Positions 2,835-44,888 of a DNA stretch of 44,888 nucleotides are shown one piece after another. The stretch lies in the IMG/VR virus record IMGVR_UViG_3300046820_000639, positions 1 to 44,888 of that record, one strand, 5' to 3'. The first letter of the stretch is position 1. The number at the start of each line of letters is the position of its first letter. The DNA comes from a virus. The notes beneath the pieces are model-generated. The model saw nothing but the letters and a program-made list of their open reading frames with translations, did no database searches and had not been told where the DNA came from. Both the position numbers and the translations under genes were made by a program.

Positions 2835-3072
2835 TATTACCCCATTTTAACATAAAGAACGTATGCTCTTTTTCTGTCAGTGTTGCTACAATTTTATATT
2901 GCTGATAAAAGTTTGTGTGATCCCAGTGTGAGGCCCAGTAAGTGTCTATGCTGTTCTCCATTACCCATTTGCCAGCTTCAGTTTGTTGCCATTCCCAAAT
3001 TGGCTGTACGGCATAGATTTCAGGATCGTCTACATCACCGACGGAAAATGTATGTACTATAGTTTTAATCAA
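2818..3072 (-). CDS. LKW-array small protein 5, TTG start
   Basis: An 84-residue protein ending EKEHTFFMLKWGNNVSGN, so the family motif is followed by a short tail. The start is a TTG whose last bases form the upstream TGA stop (TTGA, 3072-3069), a coupled non-AUG start. It has the typical helix (EWQQTEAGKWVMENSIDTYW). Function unknown. Confidence 0.65.
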   Translation of the reverse strand: MIKTIVHTFSVGDVDDPEIYAVQPIWEWQQTEAGKWVMENSIDTYWASHWDHTNFYQQYKIVATLTEKEHTFFMLKWGNNVSGN

Positions 3073-3320
3073 TTGATTAAACCCCCTACAAATTCCACTG
3101 CCAATTCTTGCAAGTCTTTTCTAAACCCGCCCGATTTAAGCTGAAACATCAGTGCATCATTTTCAGTTTCAAATACAAAGTCCATGTAATCTGTTGTAGG
3201 ATGAAACTGCACACGTTCCCCGGGAAGGCCATAGGTCTCTACAGTCCAGGCCAGCAGTTCGTTCCACGCGTCGCCGTGATTGTAGGGATCTTGCCAAGGT
3301 ACTCTAACAGTTATGCCCAT
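3069..3320 (-). CDS. LKW-array small protein 6
   Basis: An 83-residue protein starting MGITVRVPWQDPYNHGD. The family motif appears as ENDALMFQLKSGGF and is followed by about 17 more residues, so Trp is replaced and the tail is extended. It overlaps the upstream gene by 10 nt. Function unknown. Confidence 0.7.
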   Translation of the reverse strand: MGITVRVPWQDPYNHGDAWNELLAWTVETYGLPGERVQFHPTTDYMDFVFETENDALMFQLKSGGFRKDLQELAVEFVGGLIN

Positions 3321-3508
3321 AGTAATGCGAAATGCACCGCATCCTCCTTGCGTTGAAATTTAAATTCCCATCGCCAACTTGGAAACATATTATCAATGTT
3401 GTATTGTTCTCTGCCTATATTTGTATCGCACCACATTACAGCACCGTGTACGTCACTAGCAGAACCTTCGCCTAATTTTGTATTTGAGTTTAAGATAACA
3501 GAATGCAT
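3311..3508 (-). CDS. LKW-array small protein 7, first gene, predicted leaderless
   Basis: A 65-residue protein (MHSVILNSNTKLGEG) ending KEDAVHFALLWA, a diverged family motif. The ATG at 3508 lies exactly 6 nt after a TATAAT box (3520-3515) and has no Shine-Dalgarno, so it should be translated from a leaderless mRNA. It heads the coupled early operon that runs down to position 76. An upstream in-frame non-ATG start would fall inside the promoter and is rejected. Confidence 0.7.
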   Translation of the reverse strand: MHSVILNSNTKLGEGSASDVHGAVMWCDTNIGREQYNIDNMFPSWRWEFKFQRKEDAVHFALLWA

Positions 3509-3514
3509 AGCAAT

Positions 3515-3543
3515 ATTATACAATATTGCGATTTATTTGTCTT
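3515..3543 (-). promoter_or_regulatory. Early promoter for the LKW-array operon
   Basis: On the minus strand, TATAAT (3520-3515) with a weak -35 AAGACA 17 nt upstream. Six nt separate the -10 box from the ATG at 3508. It lies between two same-strand genes and overlaps the end of the upstream one. Confidence 0.6.
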
Positions 3544-3922
3544 GATCTTTAAGGATTTCGAATATACGTTTTTGTTCTTTGAATTTCTTTTCGGCCGCAC
3601 GGTAAGCATCACCTAGGGCCTTTAACTCATCAAACTCGGACTCGAGTTGTGGGTTGGGAGTTAGTATACCCAAACGACTTTCAATGCTTTCTAACATTTG
3701 GGTTAAATCGCGTCCTTTAACTGTAACATTACCATCAAATACTGCTTCACCCTTGACATATATTGTTGCAGAGCTAGCAGTGGTGTCCCACCCCGATGTG
3801 CTGGCCCATACATACGGGCTAGCAGTTCCAGTAACTCCGGTGTTTAGAGTAAAGCTCGTTTGAGTGCCACCGGCGAGCGTAATATTTCCGGTGGGAATAG
3901 CGGTTGTGTAGGTATGTGACAT
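3533..3922 (-). CDS. Putative virion structural protein with C-terminal coiled coil
   Basis: A 129-residue protein. Residues 1-70 are Thr/Ser/Gly-rich and beta-like. They are followed by a VFDGNVTVKGRDLTQMLESI motif that I associate with phage structural or fibre-type proteins, and then a Leu/Glu/Lys helix (ESRLGILTPNPQLESEFDEL) likely to be a coiled coil. The fibre-like protein at 36292-37542 contains a similar VLEGDVTIKG element. The start is leaderless (TATACT, 6 nt, ATG). Confidence 0.6.
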   Translation of the reverse strand: MSHTYTTAIPTGNITLAGGTQTSFTLNTGVTGTASPYVWASTSGWDTTASSATIYVKGEAVFDGNVTVKGRDLTQMLESIESRLGILTPNPQLESEFDELKALGDAYRAAEKKFKEQKRIFEILKDQDK

Positions 3923-12601: not shown

Positions 12602-12650
12602 CCTAAGCGATGTTTAGGCCGCTAATGCGAACTAAAAAGTTTGCATTTAC
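12602..12650 (-). pseudogene. Degenerate copy of the tmRNA tag/helix-5 segment
   Basis: On the minus strand this stretch contains TAAATGCAAA, CGCATT, GGCCTAA and TTAGG in the same order as the real tmRNA tag region (13101-13143). It includes a possible helix-5-like hairpin CCTAA / TTAGG. The tag frame is broken: read from GCA it passes the TAA by one base. It flanks the GIY-YIG gene on the side opposite the intact tmRNA. It is a remnant or partial duplication rather than a functional RNA. Confidence 0.4.
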
Positions 12651-12658
12651 TAAATAAC
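12650..12658 (+). promoter_or_regulatory. Possible late-type motif CTAAATAAC
   Basis: Plus strand, about 13 nt before the ATG of the GIY-YIG gene and directly before its GGAGG. A weak match to the late motif family. Confidence 0.3.
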
Positions 12659-12670
12659 ACTGGAGGAGCT

Positions 12671-13084
12671 ATGCAATATTTTACCTACATATGGATTGAT
12701 AAATCTAGAAAAATGTTTTACATCGGAATACACGAAGGAAAAGTAGATGACAACTACGTTTCTTCTAGTAGGTGGTTTAATGGTGAATACCAATATCGCC
12801 CGGGCGATTTTAAACGAAAAATACTTAAACTTTTTGATAACAGAGCTTCCGCAAGAAAAGAAGAAGCAAGATTACTTGCATTAGTTAAAGAAGCTGAGTT
12901 TGGAACTAGATACTATAACCTCAAAACAGGAAGACCTAAGGGCACTCCTGCATCAAACAAAGGTAAATCAATGTCGCTGGAACAGAGAGAAAAACTTAGT
13001 GCCGCCAAATTGGGGAAAACTTCGGTAAGAAAAGGTATTCCTAATAAAATAAAGCTAGTTGATTCTGTTTCCAAGTTCAACTAG
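12671..13084 (+). CDS. GIY-YIG homing endonuclease with NUMOD3-like motif
   Basis: A 137-residue protein from the ATG at 12671 (strong GGAGG upstream; an upstream in-frame start is rejected). The N-terminus YFTYIWIDKSRKMFYIGIHE is a divergent GIY-YIG core. Later come RASARKEEARLL with the usual Glu-containing helix, and a GTPASNKGKSMSLEQREKLS / KLGKTSVRKGIPNK region typical of NUMOD3 DNA-binding repeats. It is free-standing, converges on the tmRNA gene and stops at its edge, so the tmRNA locus may be its homing site. Confidence 0.85.
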   Translation: MQYFTYIWIDKSRKMFYIGIHEGKVDDNYVSSSRWFNGEYQYRPGDFKRKILKLFDNRASARKEEARLLALVKEAEFGTRYYNLKTGRPKGTPASNKGKSMSLEQREKLSAAKLGKTSVRKGIPNKIKLVDSVSKFN

Positions 13085-13402
13085 CAAAACTCAGATGGGC
13101 CTAAGTTAGGCGGCCATCAAAAATGCGTTATCATTTGCATTTAAAGGTTTTGCTTCTACGACCGGGTTCCCCCAATCCTAACGGGTTCTGCTTTCCCGTG
13201 CTGTCTGCTCTGCTACTTAATACCACGTCGAAACCTGGTCAGGCCCATCATAAAAGGACTAATGCAAACACAACAAGAACAACTATTATACCTATTCCTA
13301 GGCTGGTTAGATCGTCATTCATGCTAATCTCCTTATGGTGGACCTGGAGGGAATCGAACCCTCGTCCGCAACACCTTTTACATCACTTCATACAGCAATA
13401 AC
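13085..13402 (-). ncRNA. ssrA: Permuted two-piece tmRNA (ssrA)
   Basis: On the minus strand the acceptor piece comes first (about 13402-13336). It has T-arm stem GAGGG / CCCTC, loop TTCGATT, acceptor strand CAGGTCC, discriminator A and an encoded CCA at 13338-13336. The coding piece follows (13246 to about 13085), starting GGGCCTGACCAGGTTTCGAC, the tmRNA 5' signature. GGGCCTG pairs with CAGGTCC over 7 bp and includes G3-U70, the alanine identity pair. ACAGCA in the coding piece can pair with TGCTGT in the acceptor piece (helix 2). The order is circularly permuted, as in alphaproteobacterial and some betaproteobacterial or cyanobacterial genes. Exact processing ends are estimated. Confidence 0.93.
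13106..13138 (-). other. tmRNA tag reading frame
   Basis: From the resume codon GCA at 13138 the frame reads ANDNAFLMAA and ends in TAA. The start AND and the end AA fit known degradation tags, but the third-last residue is Met rather than the usual Leu or Val. The stop lies in a hairpin GCCTA / TAGGC, the expected helix 5. Confidence 0.92.
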
Positions 13403-13403
13403 T

Positions 13404-13559
13404 TTAATTATAACCTCTAATCACATTATTGTCAATCTTAGGATTACCTTTGGCTAATACAACCTTGTTGGCTTCTTTTTCCCGCTGTTCACGTTCAAGC
13501 TCTTTGACCGTTTGTGTTTTATCTGTTCTACTACTTGACAATTTTGTGGGTTGTTGCAT
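13404..13559 (-). CDS. Small charged protein upstream of tmRNA, 51 aa
   Basis: From the ATG at 13559 (MQQPTKLSSSRTDKTQTVKE), a highly charged coiled-coil-like helix (ELEREQREKEANKVVLAKGN). Its stop codon lies directly against the tmRNA acceptor piece, so the two could share a transcript. AATAAATACT lies 5 nt upstream of the ATG and no Shine-Dalgarno is seen. The longer frame to 13640 is rejected because it crosses that motif. Confidence 0.55.
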   Translation of the reverse strand: MQQPTKLSSSRTDKTQTVKELEREQREKEANKVVLAKGNPKIDNNVIRGYN

Positions 13560-23116: not shown

Positions 23117-25333
23117 TTAAATTCTTCTTACTCTCATGAAGCCTGGCGGCATGCCATTGGCCTCTTGTCGATTAATGTATTCTCTTATTTCATCAGCTGT
23201 AACATTACGTAGTGTGTCAAAAACTTCGTTGGGTGTATCGTACTGATATAATTCAACATCGCCTCTAGGTGCTTGAGACCTACTTCTATCTGCGGCATCA
23301 ACTGCTCCTGCAATATCTGGTTGGATATCTTTGACTGTAGAGTCTTTAGCTGGTCCTGTTTTAATACGTTTAGCAAGTTCTGCACGTCTACTCAATGGTT
23401 TTCTTACTGTGTCAAACTCAGAATAAGATCTAATATAATAGTCAACACCTGCATGCTTGTCCATTGCTAAATCTGCGGCTTCGCCTCTTGTGGCAGATTT
23501 AATTATGTCAATGATTTCGTCAGTTTCTCTATTAACTACTGCCCATTGTCCAGTGTTGGCTGATGTGTCTAACAACTCATATTGTTTCTTAAATCCTTCC
23601 ATTGACGAACCTGGACTAAGATCTTGTTTGGCTTTTGCTATAGCTTCGTCGTAGGTAAAATTACCATACTGTTTACCAGCTACAGGCTTGCCTGTGGTTT
23701 TATCATATAATTGCCATGTACTCTTTTTAAGAGTCTCAGGCGCATCTTTAGCCAATGCTGTTTCTGCCCATTGTTTCTTTAGTTCTTCTTTGGTAATTAC
23801 GCCAGCAGTATACTTTGCAAATAGTTCTAAGCTAGGATCTGATTTTTCTGGGGCAATAAGTTTGTACAACTTCTTAGCATACTCTTTACGCTCTAAGTCG
23901 GCACGGCTGGCAATGTGCATGGCCTGTGCATAACGCATCATGGTATTTTCTAGTCTATCAATACTGTCTGTGTATTCTTCACCGCCAGCACTACGGAATT
24001 CAATATAGCCTTGGTGCGGATTAATACTGGTGTACTTGCCAAAGTCGCCTTTGCTAATACTACGGCTAGCCAACTCAATCAAGTTACCACGCATCAACTC
24101 CATAGCGTCAGTTACCTTGGCATTGCCTCTGGCTATACTAGAACGAATCTTTTTCATTGCGGCTTCAGTAAAGTGATTACTGCTACGGCCAAATTCTTTT
24201 AATACGTGTTCGTCACCTAGGAATAGTGCCAACTTAACAAAGTCGACATTACCGCCAGCGTATGGTAAACTTACTCCCATATGGAAGCCAGTGGACCTAT
24301 TACTGTAAGCACCATTGCTGATTGCCCACTTAAAGAATTCACGCATCTTGTCTAGTGCTTCCTTAATAGGCATTGGTGGACTAACAATTTCTACTGGCAT
24401 ATCACCTGAGTCGGCATCAAGACTTGAGTCTGGTTCAAAAATCCAAGTTACATCATCTCGACGAGCACTATGGTATCCGCCTGATACTTTGGTTTTTACG
24501 CCAAGTACTTCACTTAAATCATCTGCTAGTCGTTGTGCATTTTGTTCACTGTATCCTGATTCGTTGCCACCAGAGCCGGTCATGTAAGGCCAATCTAAAT
24601 CAAATTGATCACGAACATCGCTCATCCAGCGTAGGCCAACATCACTAAAGAAACTACTGTCGTCATCTACTTGGAAATCGTTGCGGAACTCATCTAGGGC
24701 CATGTCATAGAAACCGTCTTGATCAGCAAGACTGTTTTCTGCTTGTGTTTGTAAGTCGTTTTCTGCTTGATCACGACCTTCTAAATAGTTGTCATAGGCT
24801 TTGCTGGCTTCTCTGGCCGCATTTTGATCGCTTAATTTAGTGTAGCGTGGTGCTGACTCGCCTGCTTCCATAGCGGCATCAACTTCTTCGTCGCTGAGTC
24901 CCATGGCTTCTAGTGCTTCACGAGTTTTGTCGTCCCAGTCCCACTCTTCGTCTTCGATGACTTTTTTAATTAACTCTTCTGCTTCGTCACGGAATGCATC
25001 GTACATTTGTTCGTCGTACCATTCCATGTACATTTCATCAAGACCGTTGCGTAGTTCACGTTCGCCACGAGGACTTAGTCCGTAGCCCCATTCATCATTG
25101 CTGAAAAAGTCAATAACTTCGTCAATAGACGAACAACGCTCGTCCATATCCATGTCCGGTTCCCAATCTTCTGGGTCAGATTCGCCTAAGCCTGTGAATA
25201 CTAATTCAGCTTCAAATCCAGCACGTATGCCTTCGGCTTCGGGACTGTTAATAAATGATTTGAGCGAGCTAGGGCTCATGCGTAGCTCGTCTAATTGTTC
25301 TTCTGTGAGTGTTCTAAAGTCTGTAAAACGCAT
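23117..25333 (-). CDS. Amidoligase_2-like enzyme with cassette leader, 738 aa
   Basis: The largest protein here. The leader MRFTDFRTLTEEQLDELR contains LDE. An acidic region (residues about 40-200) precedes the catalytic region: AGFEAELVFTG (about 40), VTWIFEPDSSLDADSGDMPV then EIVSPPMPIKEALDKMREFF and STGFHMGVSLPYAGGNVDFV (about 290-370). These match the GCS-like amidoligase_2 fold (D-S-L, EIVSPP, GxHxx). The family joins carboxylates to amines with ATP. The C-terminal 250 residues show internal WxLxDxxTG-like units. First gene of the coupled cassette. Confidence 0.75.
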   Translation of the reverse strand: MRFTDFRTLTEEQLDELRMSPSSLKSFINSPEAEGIRAGFEAELVFTGLGESDPEDWEPDMDMDERCSSIDEVIDFFSNDEWGYGLSPRGERELRNGLDEMYMEWYDEQMYDAFRDEAEELIKKVIEDEEWDWDDKTREALEAMGLSDEEVDAAMEAGESAPRYTKLSDQNAAREASKAYDNYLEGRDQAENDLQTQAENSLADQDGFYDMALDEFRNDFQVDDDSSFFSDVGLRWMSDVRDQFDLDWPYMTGSGGNESGYSEQNAQRLADDLSEVLGVKTKVSGGYHSARRDDVTWIFEPDSSLDADSGDMPVEIVSPPMPIKEALDKMREFFKWAISNGAYSNRSTGFHMGVSLPYAGGNVDFVKLALFLGDEHVLKEFGRSSNHFTEAAMKKIRSSIARGNAKVTDAMELMRGNLIELASRSISKGDFGKYTSINPHQGYIEFRSAGGEEYTDSIDRLENTMMRYAQAMHIASRADLERKEYAKKLYKLIAPEKSDPSLELFAKYTAGVITKEELKKQWAETALAKDAPETLKKSTWQLYDKTTGKPVAGKQYGNFTYDEAIAKAKQDLSPGSSMEGFKKQYELLDTSANTGQWAVVNRETDEIIDIIKSATRGEAADLAMDKHAGVDYYIRSYSEFDTVRKPLSRRAELAKRIKTGPAKDSTVKDIQPDIAGAVDAADRSRSQAPRGDVELYQYDTPNEVFDTLRNVTADEIREYINRQEANGMPPGFMRVRRI

Positions 25334-28236: not shown

Positions 28237-28860
28237 TTAAACTCGCTTGGTAACAACTTCGTCAGCTAGACCGTAGTCTACTGCTTCTTGGGCACTTAAG
28301 AATGTATCAAACTTCATAGCTTCAAACAGTTCTTCGTAGGTCTTGCCCTTGGTATTGTGCTTGACATACAGTTCAGTTAGTCGCTGATTAATGCGAACTG
28401 ATTCATCAAAGCTACGTTTAGCATCTTCGAACTGTAGTTCTTGTACGTGAACGCTACCACGTGTGCCCGGAGTACCAGAACTAACACGGTGAATCATTGT
28501 GCGTGATTCTGGTAGTACTAGTCGTTTCCCGGCAGCACCGGCGTTTGCGAGAAAACTTCCCATAGAGCAGGCCTGGCCCAGTACAATGGTAGATACATCA
28601 GGCTTAATGAATTGCATAGTATCGTATATTGCAAGTCCAGCAGTGACTGAGCCGCCTGGACTGTTGATGTAGAATAATATGTCTGCATCTGGGTTCTCAC
28701 TTTCTAAAAATAGCATTTGTGCTACAACGAGGCTAGCTGAGTGTTCGTTGACATCAGTGTCTAGCATTACAATACGGTCTTTGAGCAAGCGACTGTAAAT
28801 GTCGTAAGCACGTTCACCGTTTGAAGTTTTTTCTAATACAGTTGGTACAAAGTGTGGCAT
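28237..28860 (-). CDS. clpP: ClpP-like protease, copy 1
   Basis: A 207-residue ATP-dependent Clp protease proteolytic subunit. Oxyanion region [17 protein letters not shown], catalytic Ser in [14 protein letters not shown], catalytic His in [13 protein letters not shown], and Asp region [20 protein letters not shown] are all intact. It forms a barrel and needs a Clp ATPase such as host ClpX or ClpA. It overlaps the radical SAM gene by 28 nt. Full length with a complete triad, so it is likely active. Confidence 0.93.
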
Positions 28861-29984
28861 CGTTCACCTAATAGTTGATATGTTTCTGGAAATGTTTCTT
28901 GAAAACTTTGTTTTCGTTGCTTATCTAATATTTTAACATATTTTACAGTTGTGTCAAGTAATTCACTGTCATCTTTTGCCCACATGGCATTTAAGATTGG
29001 ATCTAATTGATCCGACATACTGTACAATTTAAACTTGCGTTCAATTGCTTGCTTGGATTCTTTAGGCAGTACCGTAATACTATAATAGTTAGGCCGCGTT
29101 AATAAACCCAAATAAGGTTGCGGCAGGCCATGCTTATCGCACCATAACAAAAAGTCAGGTAGTGCATGTAGCGTAAAGATGCTGACTGTGTGACTGACGC
29201 TAAGTTGTACATTAGACCGTTGTTTACGATACTCTAGCCAACGTCCCAAATTGATCAATACATCAGGCCAACGTGCAGGCCAACGATTGTATTCAAATTG
29301 ATTTCTAGTTCCGTCAATGCTAATTTGCACATCCACTTTTTTAAATCTTGGCCACCATTCATCTAGTATTTCATGACTGGGCATTTTTGTGCCATTGGTA
29401 ATATAGTGCAGGCTAACCTGATCGGCTTTGCCTTTTTTAACTATGTCAGACAGTAAATGAAAGTGTGGTTTGGCATCAGCATAAAACGGCTCGCCTCCGG
29501 CTATTTCAATTTGTAGCACACCGTCCAGCTGATCTAATAGCTTGGTCATAAACTCAGGATCTTTATAGAACTGATTGTGACCCCAAATTTTTATGTCGGG
29601 GAAATGTGGCTCTAATTTTTTAGCTTCCTGGGCCCAACGACTACTGGGATAACTGCTACAAATACGGCAGGCTAGATTGCAAGTATTGCCAAAGGTTAGA
29701 CTTAATGCTTTAATACCAGATAGTTCTGGTGCTTGATTGTCAAACAGGTACTGATTGTCAAGTGTGCGTTTTGATGGTAGACCTGCGTCTTCGTCTTTCC
29801 AACAGCGACTACATCCTTCGGGCTTGCGGCCAGCAACAAAATCCTCTTGCAGTTGTTTTAATGCAGGACTTGTTTGATACTCGTCTAGACTTTTAGCAAG
29901 AGTGCTGGTGTATTTACAGCAGGGCTTGAATTCACCCTGTGGGCTGATATCTAAACCAACCCAAGGATGATAACACATGGTCAT
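28833..29984 (-). CDS. Radical SAM protein with twitch/SPASM-type cysteines
   Basis: A 383-residue protein. An N-terminal Cys cluster ([20 protein letters not shown] then GCSRCW) precedes the radical SAM CxxxCxxC ([20 protein letters not shown]), followed by [11 protein letters not shown] (GGEP SAM-binding motif) and SISIDG-like [13 protein letters not shown]. This is the phage twitch-domain radical SAM family. Members may modify peptides; the substrate here is unknown. It sits between two clpP genes, with ATGA coupling to the upstream clpP. Confidence 0.88.
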
Positions 29985-39227: not shown

Positions 39228-39730
39228 ACATGCCCTGTAATTTGTAGTGTATATCTTGGATCTAAGCCCATGTTAGCGGCCATGTGCGGATCGTCCCATT
39301 CCCATTCAACAGTTGCGCCAGCCAACCAATTGACATACGGGCTGTCAAAATACTCAGCGTAGTGTCCGGGTTTCCAATCCTCAAGGAATACTACTGCACG
39401 TCTTATGTTACGCTCTTGCCCTTGCAAGTTGTGTATTTCAATGTACTTGGTATACAAATCACTGTGCGTGGGAAGAATAGTGCCTGGCATCATACGATAG
39501 TAACTGGTACCAATGTCTTTCCATCCCAGTGCTTTGAATATTTCAATAAAACCGTGATTCCAGCTGGGTTGTGGGCTACGCATGTCACACATATCTCCAG
39601 TGAACTTGTTGGGATAACCTAGTTCAAGCCAGCGTTTAACATTAGGATCATCATTGAACTGTTCATTAGAATACTCAAGTGTTTTAAACTCATCATCCCA
39701 GAATTTATGCAATTGATATTGTGTTAACAT
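39224..39730 (-). CDS. 2OG-Fe(II) oxygenase-like protein
   Basis: A 168-residue protein. GTILPTHSDLYTKYIEIHNL gives HxD, VFLEDWKPGHYAEYFDSPYV and WEWDDPHMAANMGLDPRYTL gives the distal His followed by an Arg (RYTLQITG), the layout of a 2OG-Fe(II) oxygenase. The substrate is unknown. It lies between the amidinotransferase and the sugar dehydrogenase, with TAATG-type coupling. Confidence 0.7.
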   Translation of the reverse strand: MLTQYQLHKFWDDEFKTLEYSNEQFNDDPNVKRWLELGYPNKFTGDMCDMRSPQPSWNHGFIEIFKALGWKDIGTSYYRMMPGTILPTHSDLYTKYIEIHNLQGQERNIRRAVVFLEDWKPGHYAEYFDSPYVNWLAGATVEWEWDDPHMAANMGLDPRYTLQITGHV

Positions 39731-40947
39731 TAGTGTCTAGTGTTACCGTAGTGTATGACTTGAATGTTACTGTTTGCAGTCGAATATTTACGCCATGGAT
39801 CAATGATAACACTACCATCTTCGAACTTACAATACATAGGTTGTTCTTGTATTACGCCGGAGTAGCCGTATGTTACCTGTTGATTGTGTGCCAGTAGTAC
39901 GCAACCTTTTACGCTGTCAGGTACAGTTGATTCTGTTAAAGGATCAATGTAGGTTACCTCGATGCCCATTTCTTTTAGATAGTAGCCTACCAATAGACTG
40001 TAACTACCTTCTAGATATTCTACATTGGGCTTATATGCTTTACCGTGAATATACACAGGAAGTCCTGCACGATTGTCATATATGAAACGCGCCATATTTT
40101 TTGCTTGTTGTTCACGTGCCTTCATGATCACATCAAATAAGTCGTAGCCTAGGTCAAGGCTTTCGGCTAGATAACGCAAAGCAATATTGTCACGTGGATG
40201 ACAAGGTCCTGCATCACCAAGTCCTGCTGTCATATACTTTGGACCCATGATACGCATAGTTGAATTAGCTAATGCATTAGTTACTACATCAACATTGATG
40301 TTGCCTTGTTTAATAGCAACGTCTTGAATCATGTTAACCAATCCAATTTTAGCACTGATAAATGTATTGTAAAAAACTTTAATACATTCACATTCGTCCC
40401 AAGTACCAACAACATACCTAGGACTGTTTTGCATGATAGTCTTATAGAATTCTATCAGCTGATGTGCATCTCCAGTTTCACTGCCATCCTCTGTACCAAT
40501 CATAACCATCTCAGGATTAACCATGTCCCACTCAACTGACCCCATGGCAATCAAGTAAGGATTGTAAATAAAACGTGTGTTGTTGACCAACTGTACAAAT
40601 TCTCTACGTGTGGTGCCTGGCAGAACTGTGGAGATAAGAACCACTAACTGATCTCTGTTTGCATATTGATTAATTTCTGTCAGTACATTTTTAACAATAG
40701 TATAATCAAAATCCTTGTTCTTTAAATGTGTAATAGGTTGATCGCCACCATAGATTGGGTCGTGCGGCGTTTGTACTGCTACAAAGATAATGTCCTTACC
40801 ACTAACTGCATCTTGTAATGTGGATGCAATCTTTATTTTGTCACTTTGGCGTGGATAAATATCATAGCCCGTTACGTCGTGTTGCGTTGACATAACCTCG
40901 GCACAAGCCATACCCAACTTACCTATTCCAATAAATCCTACTTTCAA
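39730..40947 (-). CDS. Nucleotide-sugar dehydrogenase (UDP-Glc/GDP-Man type), TTG start
   Basis: A 405-residue protein. The start is TTG at 40947 with AAGGAG 8 nt upstream (KVGFIGIGKLGMACAEVMS); a longer frame to 40986 is rejected. The Rossmann GxGxxG region, FVAVQTPHDP, VLISTVLPGTTR, FYNTFISAKIGLVNMI and catalytic Cys in GLGDAGPCHPRDNIAL match the UDP-glucose/GDP-mannose dehydrogenase family. It oxidises a sugar C6 to a uronate using NAD. The C-terminal IHGKAYKPNVEYLEGS block is intact. Confidence 0.88.
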   Translation of the reverse strand: MKVGFIGIGKLGMACAEVMSTQHDVTGYDIYPRQSDKIKIASTLQDAVSGKDIIFVAVQTPHDPIYGGDQPITHLKNKDFDYTIVKNVLTEINQYANRDQLVVLISTVLPGTTRREFVQLVNNTRFIYNPYLIAMGSVEWDMVNPEMVMIGTEDGSETGDAHQLIEFYKTIMQNSPRYVVGTWDECECIKVFYNTFISAKIGLVNMIQDVAIKQGNINVDVVTNALANSTMRIMGPKYMTAGLGDAGPCHPRDNIALRYLAESLDLGYDLFDVIMKAREQQAKNMARFIYDNRAGLPVYIHGKAYKPNVEYLEGSYSLLVGYYLKEMGIEVTYIDPLTESTVPDSVKGCVLLAHNQQVTYGYSGVIQEQPMYCKFEDGSVIIDPWRKYSTANSNIQVIHYGNTRH

Positions 40948-40950
40948 CTT

Positions 40951-42078
40951 ATGATCTCCTTTGATGATTGGTACTATTCGATTCACAAAAACTTTTTAAA
41001 AAGTATCGATTCTCAATGTTACTTTGTAAACGATTTTTATCCTGAATCGCCATTTTATAAAATACAAAATTCTTGCTATAACGACGCAAACGCTAGGCAT
41101 GCATTTTTGTTCTTTGATCAAGAGCCGTTTTATTCCAAATTATTTGGTCAGGCCGCGTTCCCTGTAGAGCTAATGCGTGGTAATGGTAAAAAGTTTTTCG
41201 TTACAAGCGAAATTTCGAATGATGTCACTAATTTTTTGAACACAATAAATTACAAAAGTATTTATTATTTTTTTCATGCTGTTGCGGCAAATCATTGGTA
41301 CCGTAACTACAGAGCATGCCCACCAAAATTCATTGAACCCATAACACACGCATTTATCAGCTACAACAACCTAGCTTCTAGTTTTAGAAGCCATAGAGTC
41401 GACTTACTCAGTAGATTATACAGCAAAGATTTAATAAAGCAAGGTCTTGTTAGTTTCAATAGCCCAGGTCTGGAAAAATTACAACAGTCAATTGAATCGT
41501 TGCCGGATTATCCTGCACAGTCCCTTGAGATATTTGAACAGCAAAAACATAATTTAGACAAGTCATTGATAATCGATCAAAAGTCCATACACGGATCATT
41601 GAGTGCAAGCATTGACCTAGATTCAGCTAGAAGTTGTTTTGTGCAATTAGTAACCGAAACAGTTTACTATCAAAATAAACTTCATTTAACAGAAAAAGTA
41701 TTTAAACCCATTGTTACCGGACAACCGTTCTTACTACTGGCGGCGCCAAACAATCTTAAGTATCTAAAAAGTTACGGGTTTAAAACCTTTGGTGCTTACT
41801 GGGACGAAAACTACGACAGTATGCTAGATCCAGCAGATAGAATGGCGGCTGTAGTTAATATAACAGAACAATTGTGCAACAAGCCATTGGCAGAACTAGA
41901 AGAAATGCGCCGTGATATGCAAGATATACTTGAGCATAACTATCGTCATTTCTATTACGATTTGGTGCCATTAGTTATTACAGAGTTTATCAACAACCTT
42001 GAATCTGCACTTAAAGACGCAGATATCGCCTACAACAAAGCTGAACTAACCGAGCTGTACCAAATTCTAACATATTAA
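40951..42078 (+). CDS. Exostosin-like glycosyltransferase family protein, copy 3
   Basis: A 375-residue, more divergent relative of the 16065 and 34152 genes. LVTETVYYQNKLHLTEKVFK then PIVTGQPFLLLAAPNNLKYL and SYGFKTFGAYWDENYDSMLD match the shared C-terminal block. Start MISFDDWYYSI parallels MISVYYDSQLL of copy 1. Its ATG is only 3 nt from the divergent dehydrogenase start. The role is presumably sugar transfer using a donor from the neighbouring pathway. Confidence 0.7.
   Translation: MISFDDWYYSIHKNFLKSIDSQCYFVNDFYPESPFYKIQNSCYNDANARHAFLFFDQEPFYSKLFGQAAFPVELMRGNGKKFFVTSEISNDVTNFLNTINYKSIYYFFHAVAANHWYRNYRACPPKFIEPITHAFISYNNLASSFRSHRVDLLSRLYSKDLIKQGLVSFNSPGLEKLQQSIESLPDYPAQSLEIFEQQKHNLDKSLIIDQKSIHGSLSASIDLDSARSCFVQLVTETVYYQNKLHLTEKVFKPIVTGQPFLLLAAPNNLKYLKSYGFKTFGAYWDENYDSMLDPADRMAAVVNITEQLCNKPLAELEEMRRDMQDILEHNYRHFYYDLVPLVITEFINNLESALKDADIAYNKAELTELYQILTY
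41257..41267 (-). promoter_or_regulatory. Late-type motif AATAAATACT inside a gene
   Basis: Minus strand, exact match to the best late motif, within the plus-strand glycosyltransferase gene and about 310 nt upstream of the dehydrogenase start. Could drive the minus-strand dehydrogenase operon; could also be chance. Confidence 0.35.
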
Positions 42079-43727: not shown

Positions 43728-44888
43728 TTACTTTGATTGTGCCCTGAAAACCCCATCCCAATCTTTTGGTAGGTCATGAGTTTTCATCTCCTTGCAACGT
43801 TCTATCCATAGCTCGTAGCTATGATCCATTTGGCCATCGAACTCGCCTGTTAACTGTTTACACATTTTAATTGCTTGATCGAACTTCTGACTACGATATG
43901 CGGCTAGCATAGCATCATGTGTTTCACGTGCCATCATATACTCGGGCATTGAACCTGCGTCTGTGTACAACAAAGGTGTGTAGATATTTAATCCAACTGC
44001 TTTACCTTTAACAGCTATACAGTCTAATTCTAGACAGAAAAAGTCATCTTTAACTTCTTTGTATGTGTCGGGACCAATGATCAACAGCACACCATAGCCC
44101 TTGGTTTGTCCTTCTAAACGACTGGCTACCGACACAGGATCGCCTAGTACATCATAGCCCATCTTACCTTCAGCACCAATGTTACCTACCAGTATCTTAC
44201 CTGTATTAACACCGGCACCCATACCCACTGGCGGCTTGCCAATTGACTCCAAGTGTTTGTTAAATTCTTCAACAGCCTTAACCATTTCAATGGCTGTCTT
44301 AACTGCATGGTAAGCATGACGATCATCGTCTAGTGGTGCACCGTGAATGTGCAATGACGCATCTCCAATGAACTTGATCAAGCATCCGTTGTTGTCAAAC
44401 ACAGGTTTAGCAATAGCAGTCATATATTCGTTCATGATAGCTGTAAAGCCTTCTACATCTGTGCCGTACTTTTCACCTAAGCCAGTAAAGTTACGCATGT
44501 CGGTCATAACTGCTGTCAACATCTTTTCTTCACCGCCTAGTTTAATTAGTTCAGGATTCTTCTGTAAACGTTCAACAATCACAGGGCTTACATAGCTACC
44601 AAACTGTTTCTTAATCTGTTGCTTCTGTAAGAATTCGCTTACAAACTTAACACCATAAGCGTGAAGCATAACCAAAATAAGACCGCCGACTGGAATAGTC
44701 GCGTCCACAAGCCATTGGCTACTGCTATATGCGAAATTACATAAAGGAATAATAACGCCAATACCAACAACACCTGCCCCAATACCAACATAAGTCCACC
44801 TTGTTAAAAATAATAATGTAACACCAATTAATAATACCGTCAATAGTTCAGCACCGTCGGCCCAATCAGGACGTTGAATAACTACACC
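43728..44888 (-). CDS. CHASE2-type class III adenylate/guanylate cyclase, N-terminus beyond window
   Basis: 386 codons are present; the frame is open to the right edge and begins RPDWADGAEL, typical of the end of a CHASE2 sensor. Three membrane spans follow (TVLLIGVTLLFLTRW..., then IGVIIPL and VGGLILVMLHAYG), then the cyclase domain: VMTDMRNFTGL (metal Asp), LIKFIGDASLHIHGAP (Lys and second metal Asp) and VLGDPVSVASRLEG (base-binding Asp). The usual Asn of the N-x-x-x-R pair is Ser here. It should make cAMP (or cGMP) at the host inner membrane. Unusual for a phage. Confidence 0.85.
   Translation of the reverse strand, partial: GVVIQRPDWADGAELLTVLLIGVTLLFLTRWTYVGIGAGVVGIGVIIPLCNFAYSSSQWLVDATIPVGGLILVMLHAYGVKFVSEFLQKQQIKKQFGSYVSPVIVERLQKNPELIKLGGEEKMLTAVMTDMRNFTGLGEKYGTDVEGFTAIMNEYMTAIAKPVFDNNGCLIKFIGDASLHIHGAPLDDDRHAYHAVKTAIEMVKAVEEFNKHLESIGKPPVGMGAGVNTGKILVGNIGAEGKMGYDVLGDPVSVASRLEGQTKGYGVLLIIGPDTYKEVKDDFFCLELDCIAVKGKAVGLNIYTPLLYTDAGSMPEYMMARETHDAMLAAYRSQKFDQAIKMCKQLTGEFDGQMDHSYELWIERCKEMKTHDLPKDWDGVFRAQSK

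Follow-up and report, generated by a model that had tools for sequence, protein, structure and literature searches.

A permuted tmRNA gene and its phage

The window, a virus fragment of 44,888 bases, carries on its minus strand a complete phage circularly permuted tmRNA of the beta type. An initial annotation, which gave no strand, had placed a permuted tmRNA with the tag ANDNAFLMAA at 13085-13402, and this is borne out by ARAGORN, which calls a tmRNA* with the same tag at 13015-13428 (-), and by Rfam cmscan. A covariance-model check yields scores above the curated cut-offs for both RF04321 tmRNA_permuted (13397..13106; 119.5 bits against a gathering value of 47, E 6.9e-23, full model 1-213) and RF01850 beta_tmRNA (13449..13050; 90.6 bits, gathering 84). 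In the RF04321/RF01850 alignments and the ARAGORN call the acceptor piece (13336..13397, minus strand) comprises the T-arm, the 3' acceptor strand CAGGUCC, A73 and the encoded CCA. The T-arm and CCA (13363-13336) lie upstream of the coding piece (13106..13246, minus strand; ARAGORN, Rfam), which extends from the 5' acceptor strand GGGCCUG to the tag ANDNAFLMAA* at 13138-13106. The predicted arrangement of the two pieces and the 7-bp acceptor stem (GGGCCUG/CAGGUCC) that includes G3-U70 are recovered in the Rfam alignment and in the folds. The tag frame and helix-5 hairpin, described as intact, are both present: the tag is closed by a stop after small and hydrophobic C-terminal residues, and the tag stop is followed by a helix-5-like hairpin (CUUAG..CUGAG). 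The two pieces are separated by an intervening segment (IVS) of 89 nt (13247..13335, minus strand), the last four bases of which are UGAU.

Directly upstream of the acceptor piece a consensus scan finds a sigma-70 promoter that matches at 12 of 12 positions (TTGACA-17-TATAAT; 13407..13435, minus strand), while downstream a terminator-like 9-bp stem-loop is followed by a U-rich tail UUUAUUUUAUU (13054..13085, minus strand; z -3.4 for 13040-13110). The stem-loop is missing from the consensus-scan list that gave the promoter. With a promoter directly upstream and a terminator-like hairpin downstream, the tmRNA gene looks like a self-contained transcription unit. A homing-endonuclease-like ORF of GIY/HNH type (12641-13084, plus strand; phrog_314, E 1.2e-14) lies outside the tmRNA gene, converging on it and overlapping the terminator-like hairpin.

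An Amidoligase_2 protein (738 aa, 23117-25333, minus strand) is related to one in Agrobacterium phage Atu_ph07, and window genes are shared with contigs of 42 to 278 kb, which together point to a large phage. The same phage encodes a UDP-glucose dehydrogenase (39730-40986, minus strand) and a radical SAM protein (28833-29984, minus strand). A 371-aa protein (43728-44843, minus strand) contains an adenylate/guanylate cyclase catalytic domain (PF00211, E 3.9e-15). Such a protein is unusual for a phage; the related contigs L320 and L506 have it too, at a conservation of about 50%.

A phage permuted tmRNA is by itself ordinary and already published: two-piece tmRNAs are reported in 53 phages, 50 of them from marine or aquatic samples (PMC9004378). 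The MAA end of the tag had been put forward as a possible change in ClpX or ClpA recognition, and this reading did not hold up. The same end occurs in 18 of 269 phage tags and in the Burkholderiales tag ANDENFAMAA, from the host order, so it gives no hint by itself of altered recognition and is ruled out as a special feature. Unusually long predicted tags of 23-31 aa recur in phage permuted tmRNAs (L023, L039, L042, L061, L314, L491 and others; for example ANADTFDFSAMSFTGNTVSGKSKVALAA). Stenotrophomonas phage QDWS359 (L002, NC_073028) has at 2993-3571 a permuted tmRNA (RF04321, 108.7 bits; tag ANDSVYAQAIAA) that is unannotated in its record, where a hypothetical protein is annotated antisense over the same stretch. 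In the Menderavirus genomes L627, L628 and L632 the ends of the annotated tmRNA are overlapped by ~20 nt by a tRNA-Thr annotation and, in two of the three, by a tRNA-Leu annotation, and the ends given for these tmRNA features may need correction.

None of nine phage records with a permuted tmRNA contains an SmpB gene. This would suit a phage RNA that serves as a decoy, titrating host SmpB or blocking the host tmRNA with no rescue of its own, for which the tRNA-like fragment of mycobacteriophage DS6A provides a precedent (PMC4131195, PMC11915505). Such a decoy is very improbable here: in contrast to that of DS6A, the window RNA has its tag frame, resume region and helix-5-like hairpin preserved, and the LAA end, which a decoy would not need, is kept in 209 of 269 phage tags. 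Given the missing SmpB genes, an active phage tmRNA would rely on host SmpB, and a role of the tmRNA in ribosome rescue during infection is plausible.

The reading frame within the intervening segment

The IVS of the window is filled by an ORF (13248..13322; read 13322-13248 on the minus strand) that is absent from the initial annotation. It is led by the Shine-Dalgarno (SD) sequence AAGGAG (13329..13334, minus strand), positioned 1 nt past the CCA and 6 nt ahead of the ATG, and consists of 24 codons followed by a UGA, with a single base left between this stop and the coding piece. The stop is the UGA of the conserved UGAU preceding the RNase P site. The predicted product, MNDDLTSLGIGIIVVLVVFALVLL, is a micro-protein of 24 aa with an acidic head and a single strongly hydrophobic stretch that forms one predicted membrane span, and within its cluster hydropathy exceeds 3 over 17 residues.

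The codons of this ORF are under purifying selection. Across the 11 distinct DNAs of its group pS is 0.545 and pN 0.099 (pN/pS 0.18), with 249, 98 and 512 differences at codon positions 1, 2 and 3, respectively. For codons 2-18, which lie outside the paired 3' end, pN/pS is 0.23, and 0 of 300 column shuffles were as low, although these controls ignore the tree and their counts are not exact probabilities. The ratio is also low for codons 7-18, outside the helix. As judged from these substitution patterns, the peptide is kept among the relatives while the DNA diverges, which shows coding selection.

A search made with the peptide only, in which a degenerate pattern for the second half of MNDDLTSLGIGIIVVLVVFALVLL plus the stop was run over all viral contigs, returned 31 matching stretches, every one of them inside the IVS of a permuted tmRNA. 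They comprise 19 loci already in hand and 12 new ones, and all 12 new loci show a CCA acceptor end before the ORF and TTCGAC after it. No stand-alone copy of the family is present among these 31 matches. By tblastn against named phages nothing was found for IVS peptides of 24, 41 and 83 aa, and a fourth gave only weak partial matches to Lactobacillus phage endolysins (E 0.5-1). The Pfam search of the IVS peptides gave no match and the PHROGs search only matches at E 0.006 or worse. The possibility that the IVS peptides also exist as stand-alone genes was therefore rejected, the tblastn, Pfam and PHROGs results being unconvincing and the peptide-only pattern matching IVS copies exclusively. Neither Pfam nor PHROGs provides a relative of known function for MNDDLTSLGIGIIVVLVVFALVLL, which counts against the interpretation favored below.

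Intervening segments across phages and bacteria

Pattern scans of viral contigs gave at least about 350 matches to the permuted-tmRNA pattern, and the prevalence of IVS ORFs taken from these scans is a lower bound. One of the scans demanded an ATG near the CCA and hence yielded an ORF-enriched sample. In a sample not selected for ORFs, which comprises 111 distinct IVSs (86-116 nt when measured to GGTTTCGAC), 15 hold an SD-led ORF that spans 20 aa or more and lies wholly within the IVS, as against 0.6 expected from shuffles (maximum 4). With all clustered ORFs counted, the figure for this sample is 24 of 111, compared with 0 of 101 among IVSs of 55-85 nt. An ORF is absent from most phage IVSs, and all carriers of IVS ORFs are metagenomic contigs. 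Similar 12/12 promoters are found at other IVS-ORF loci, where they precede the scanned acceptor piece by 25-30 nt.

By a simple similarity threshold the IVS ORFs form at least 26 clusters, with membrane-type and soluble-type members, a count that includes several single unconfirmed ORFs and a few singletons split merely by trimming at contig ends. Three further families show the coding signal in shuffles that again ignore the tree: MENLILL... (pN/pS 0.30; 0 of 500 shuffles as low), MDKTELK... (0.13; 0 of 500) and MKYTALC... (0.22; 2 of 500). Another three small groups, for which 24 to 30 of 500 shuffles were as low, are suggestive only. The portion of the peptide within the IVS is mostly 22-45 aa and reaches 83 aa in L284, a 338-kb contig whose 284-nt IVS holds an SD-led hydrophobic ORF, the largest IVS cargo seen. 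Among 67 distinct IVS coding sequences, 47 stop within the IVS and 20 run past the RNase P site to overlap the coding piece.

The cargo can differ where the surrounding DNA does not. Contigs L039 and L061 are identical at 3898 of 3900 nt on one side and at 3311 of 3311 nt on the other (2 mismatches in 7.2 kb), whereas their IVSs are 41% identical, so that these near-clonal contigs otherwise differ solely in this cassette. One cargo is a zinc-ribbon-like peptide (MKYTALCPSCF...) and the other a membrane-type peptide (MMNPAYVISGI...). An assembly error is possible in principle, and it would need to replace exactly the IVS segment. A similar IVS difference separates L069 and L341, which are 99% identical on the downstream side. 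From these comparisons we conclude that the IVS across phages constitutes a swappable slot for many unrelated micro-genes.

A scan of 84,980 bacterial and archaeal species genomes with the T-arm-CCA-SD-ATG pattern returned 102 loci, the majority being tRNA-Tyr (66) or tRNA-Ala (11). A tmRNA was called at two of them, and the single IVS read there (46 nt) contains no ORF. In the host order, reached via a Herbaspirillum genome, 9 of 200 genomes pass the RF04321 cut-off, and no ORF is found in the four IVSs readable by pattern (41-46 nt to TTCGAC). The IVSs of the named phages read (Menderavirus, Xanthomonas phages X1 and Rb1, and Stenotrophomonas phage QDWS359) are likewise non-coding. That the IVSs read in bacteria and named phages lack ORFs indicates that the ORF is an addition, outside the tmRNA's own machinery.

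With or without an ORF, the ends of nearly all phage IVSs pair with each other to extend the acceptor helix, the median duplex energies being -13.0 and -15.9 kcal/mol for own ends versus -7.6 and -6.6 for swapped ends. The window ORF is superimposed on this helix frame: the 5' strand contains the SD, the 3' strand the last codons, and the UGA of UGAU serves as the stop. If the gene were a phage permuted tmRNA of the usual kind and its IVS were non-coding, pairing of this sort could dictate AAGGAG close to the CCA and CCUUUUAUGAU close to the coding piece, and the ORF would be a product of chance or a by-product of RNA structure. Consistent with this account, UGAU precedes the coding piece in 139 of 198 types that have no ORF (and in 53 of 55 that do), and the ORF-less IVSs are the majority. 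It is nonetheless highly unlikely: the substitutions are biased to third positions with low pN/pS outside the helix, several unrelated families carry a like coding signal, SD-led ORFs exceed the shuffle expectation, and the peptide-only pattern matches nothing but IVSs. The coding tests outside the helix likewise disfavor the ORF as an RNA-structure artifact.

The same helix bears on a second alternative, in which the ORF is mainly regulatory. Ribosomes translating the IVS would prevent the acceptor helix from closing and thereby hold back both RNase P and 3'-end processing; the tmRNA would then mature as translation falters, and the peptide itself would be of little importance. The SD and the last codons do make up the acceptor-extending helix, the stop abuts the 5' acceptor strand, and the position of the cargo is fixed while its sequence is highly variable. 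Amino acids are however conserved within families, which pure traffic control would not need, and many phages of the same kind manage without an ORF; we regard this alternative as unlikely.

The precursor as a candidate dual transcript

The interpretation that we favor, and consider probable, is that the precursor is both a tmRNA and a mini-mRNA for a membrane micro-protein, housed in an exchangeable micro-gene slot. The transcript would start at the strong host-type promoter. As expected from the family, its acceptor and coding pieces would form a tmRNA that tags and rescues stalled ribosomes together with host SmpB. The IVS, which is discarded in ordinary permuted tmRNAs, would contribute an SD, an AUG start, 24 codons and, immediately ahead of the RNase P cut, a UGA stop, and either the intact precursor or the excised IVS could act as a complete mini-mRNA for a single-pass membrane micro-protein. 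Translation at the IVS ATG would occur either during transcription, ahead of helix closure, or on the IVS once it is released. Because the SD lies inside the acceptor-extending helix, paired with the last codons, the tmRNA fold and the translating ribosome should be in competition for one molecule. The predicted pairing of the window SD counts against the precursor serving as an mRNA, as does the finding that ORF carriers are all metagenomic contigs while the named phages read have no IVS ORF. Most likely, though this is speculative, the peptide would work in the membrane of the host, as a factor for host takeover or for exclusion.

In gene order, G3-U70 stem, CCA, tag and IVS the window gene resembles the permuted tmRNAs of RF04321/RF01850, including that of Methylophilales phage Melnitz (PMC9004378). 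Unlike those in the host-order genes and the named phages read, its IVS is a conserved protein-coding cassette. Genes nested in a part of the tmRNA precursor that is removed at maturation have been described before, as the homing-endonuclease genes of group I introns in tmRNA genes (36 of 883) and as one tRNA-Ala inside a permuted-tmRNA IVS (PMC11915505). In contrast to the former, the IVS ORFs are associated with neither an intron nor a homing endonuclease, would be removed by tRNA-type processing, and encode proteins of 22-83 aa, many with a membrane span and with the SD at the CCA end. An endonuclease nested in a group I intron does not account for the window gene, in which the T-loop is uninterrupted, RF04321 aligns end to end, and neither Pfam nor PHROGs has a match to the IVS peptide.

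SgrS/SgrT is a dual-function RNA. RyhB/RyhP is another (PMC5331693), and the window transcript would similarly combine a functional RNA with a small-protein mRNA; unlike in RyhB/RyhP, the role of functional RNA falls to a tmRNA, and the ORF occupies the part that processing discards. In the open-access literature, which defined the scope of our search, no earlier report of protein genes in a permuted-tmRNA IVS was found.

Where a cassette runs on beyond the RNase P site, processing would leave stop-less fragments that become trans-translation substrates. The arfA mRNA is stop-less and repressed by trans-translation (PMC10107115); IVS ORFs running past the RNase P site would resemble arfA in turning stop-less after processing, unlike the window ORF, whose stop stays inside the IVS. 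A more elaborate and distinctly tentative proposal is that the IVS serves phages as a dedicated, exchangeable site for expressing micro-proteins, the output of which is wired to ribosome rescue. The excised IVS of TM-type cassettes would be a complete mini-mRNA ending in UGAU, while the stop-less cut mRNA of read-through cassettes would give arfA-like feedback.

A segment regarded as processing waste thus becomes a conserved, swappable protein-coding slot, and families of phage micro-proteins come to light whose small size and location within an RNA gene can let them escape gene callers. With one transcript serving both ribosome rescue and another phage product, the choice of the RNA between folding and translation becomes testable. 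The exchange of cassettes between near-clonal phages suggests that the cargo is under rapid selection, as would be expected of genes for host takeover or phage competition.
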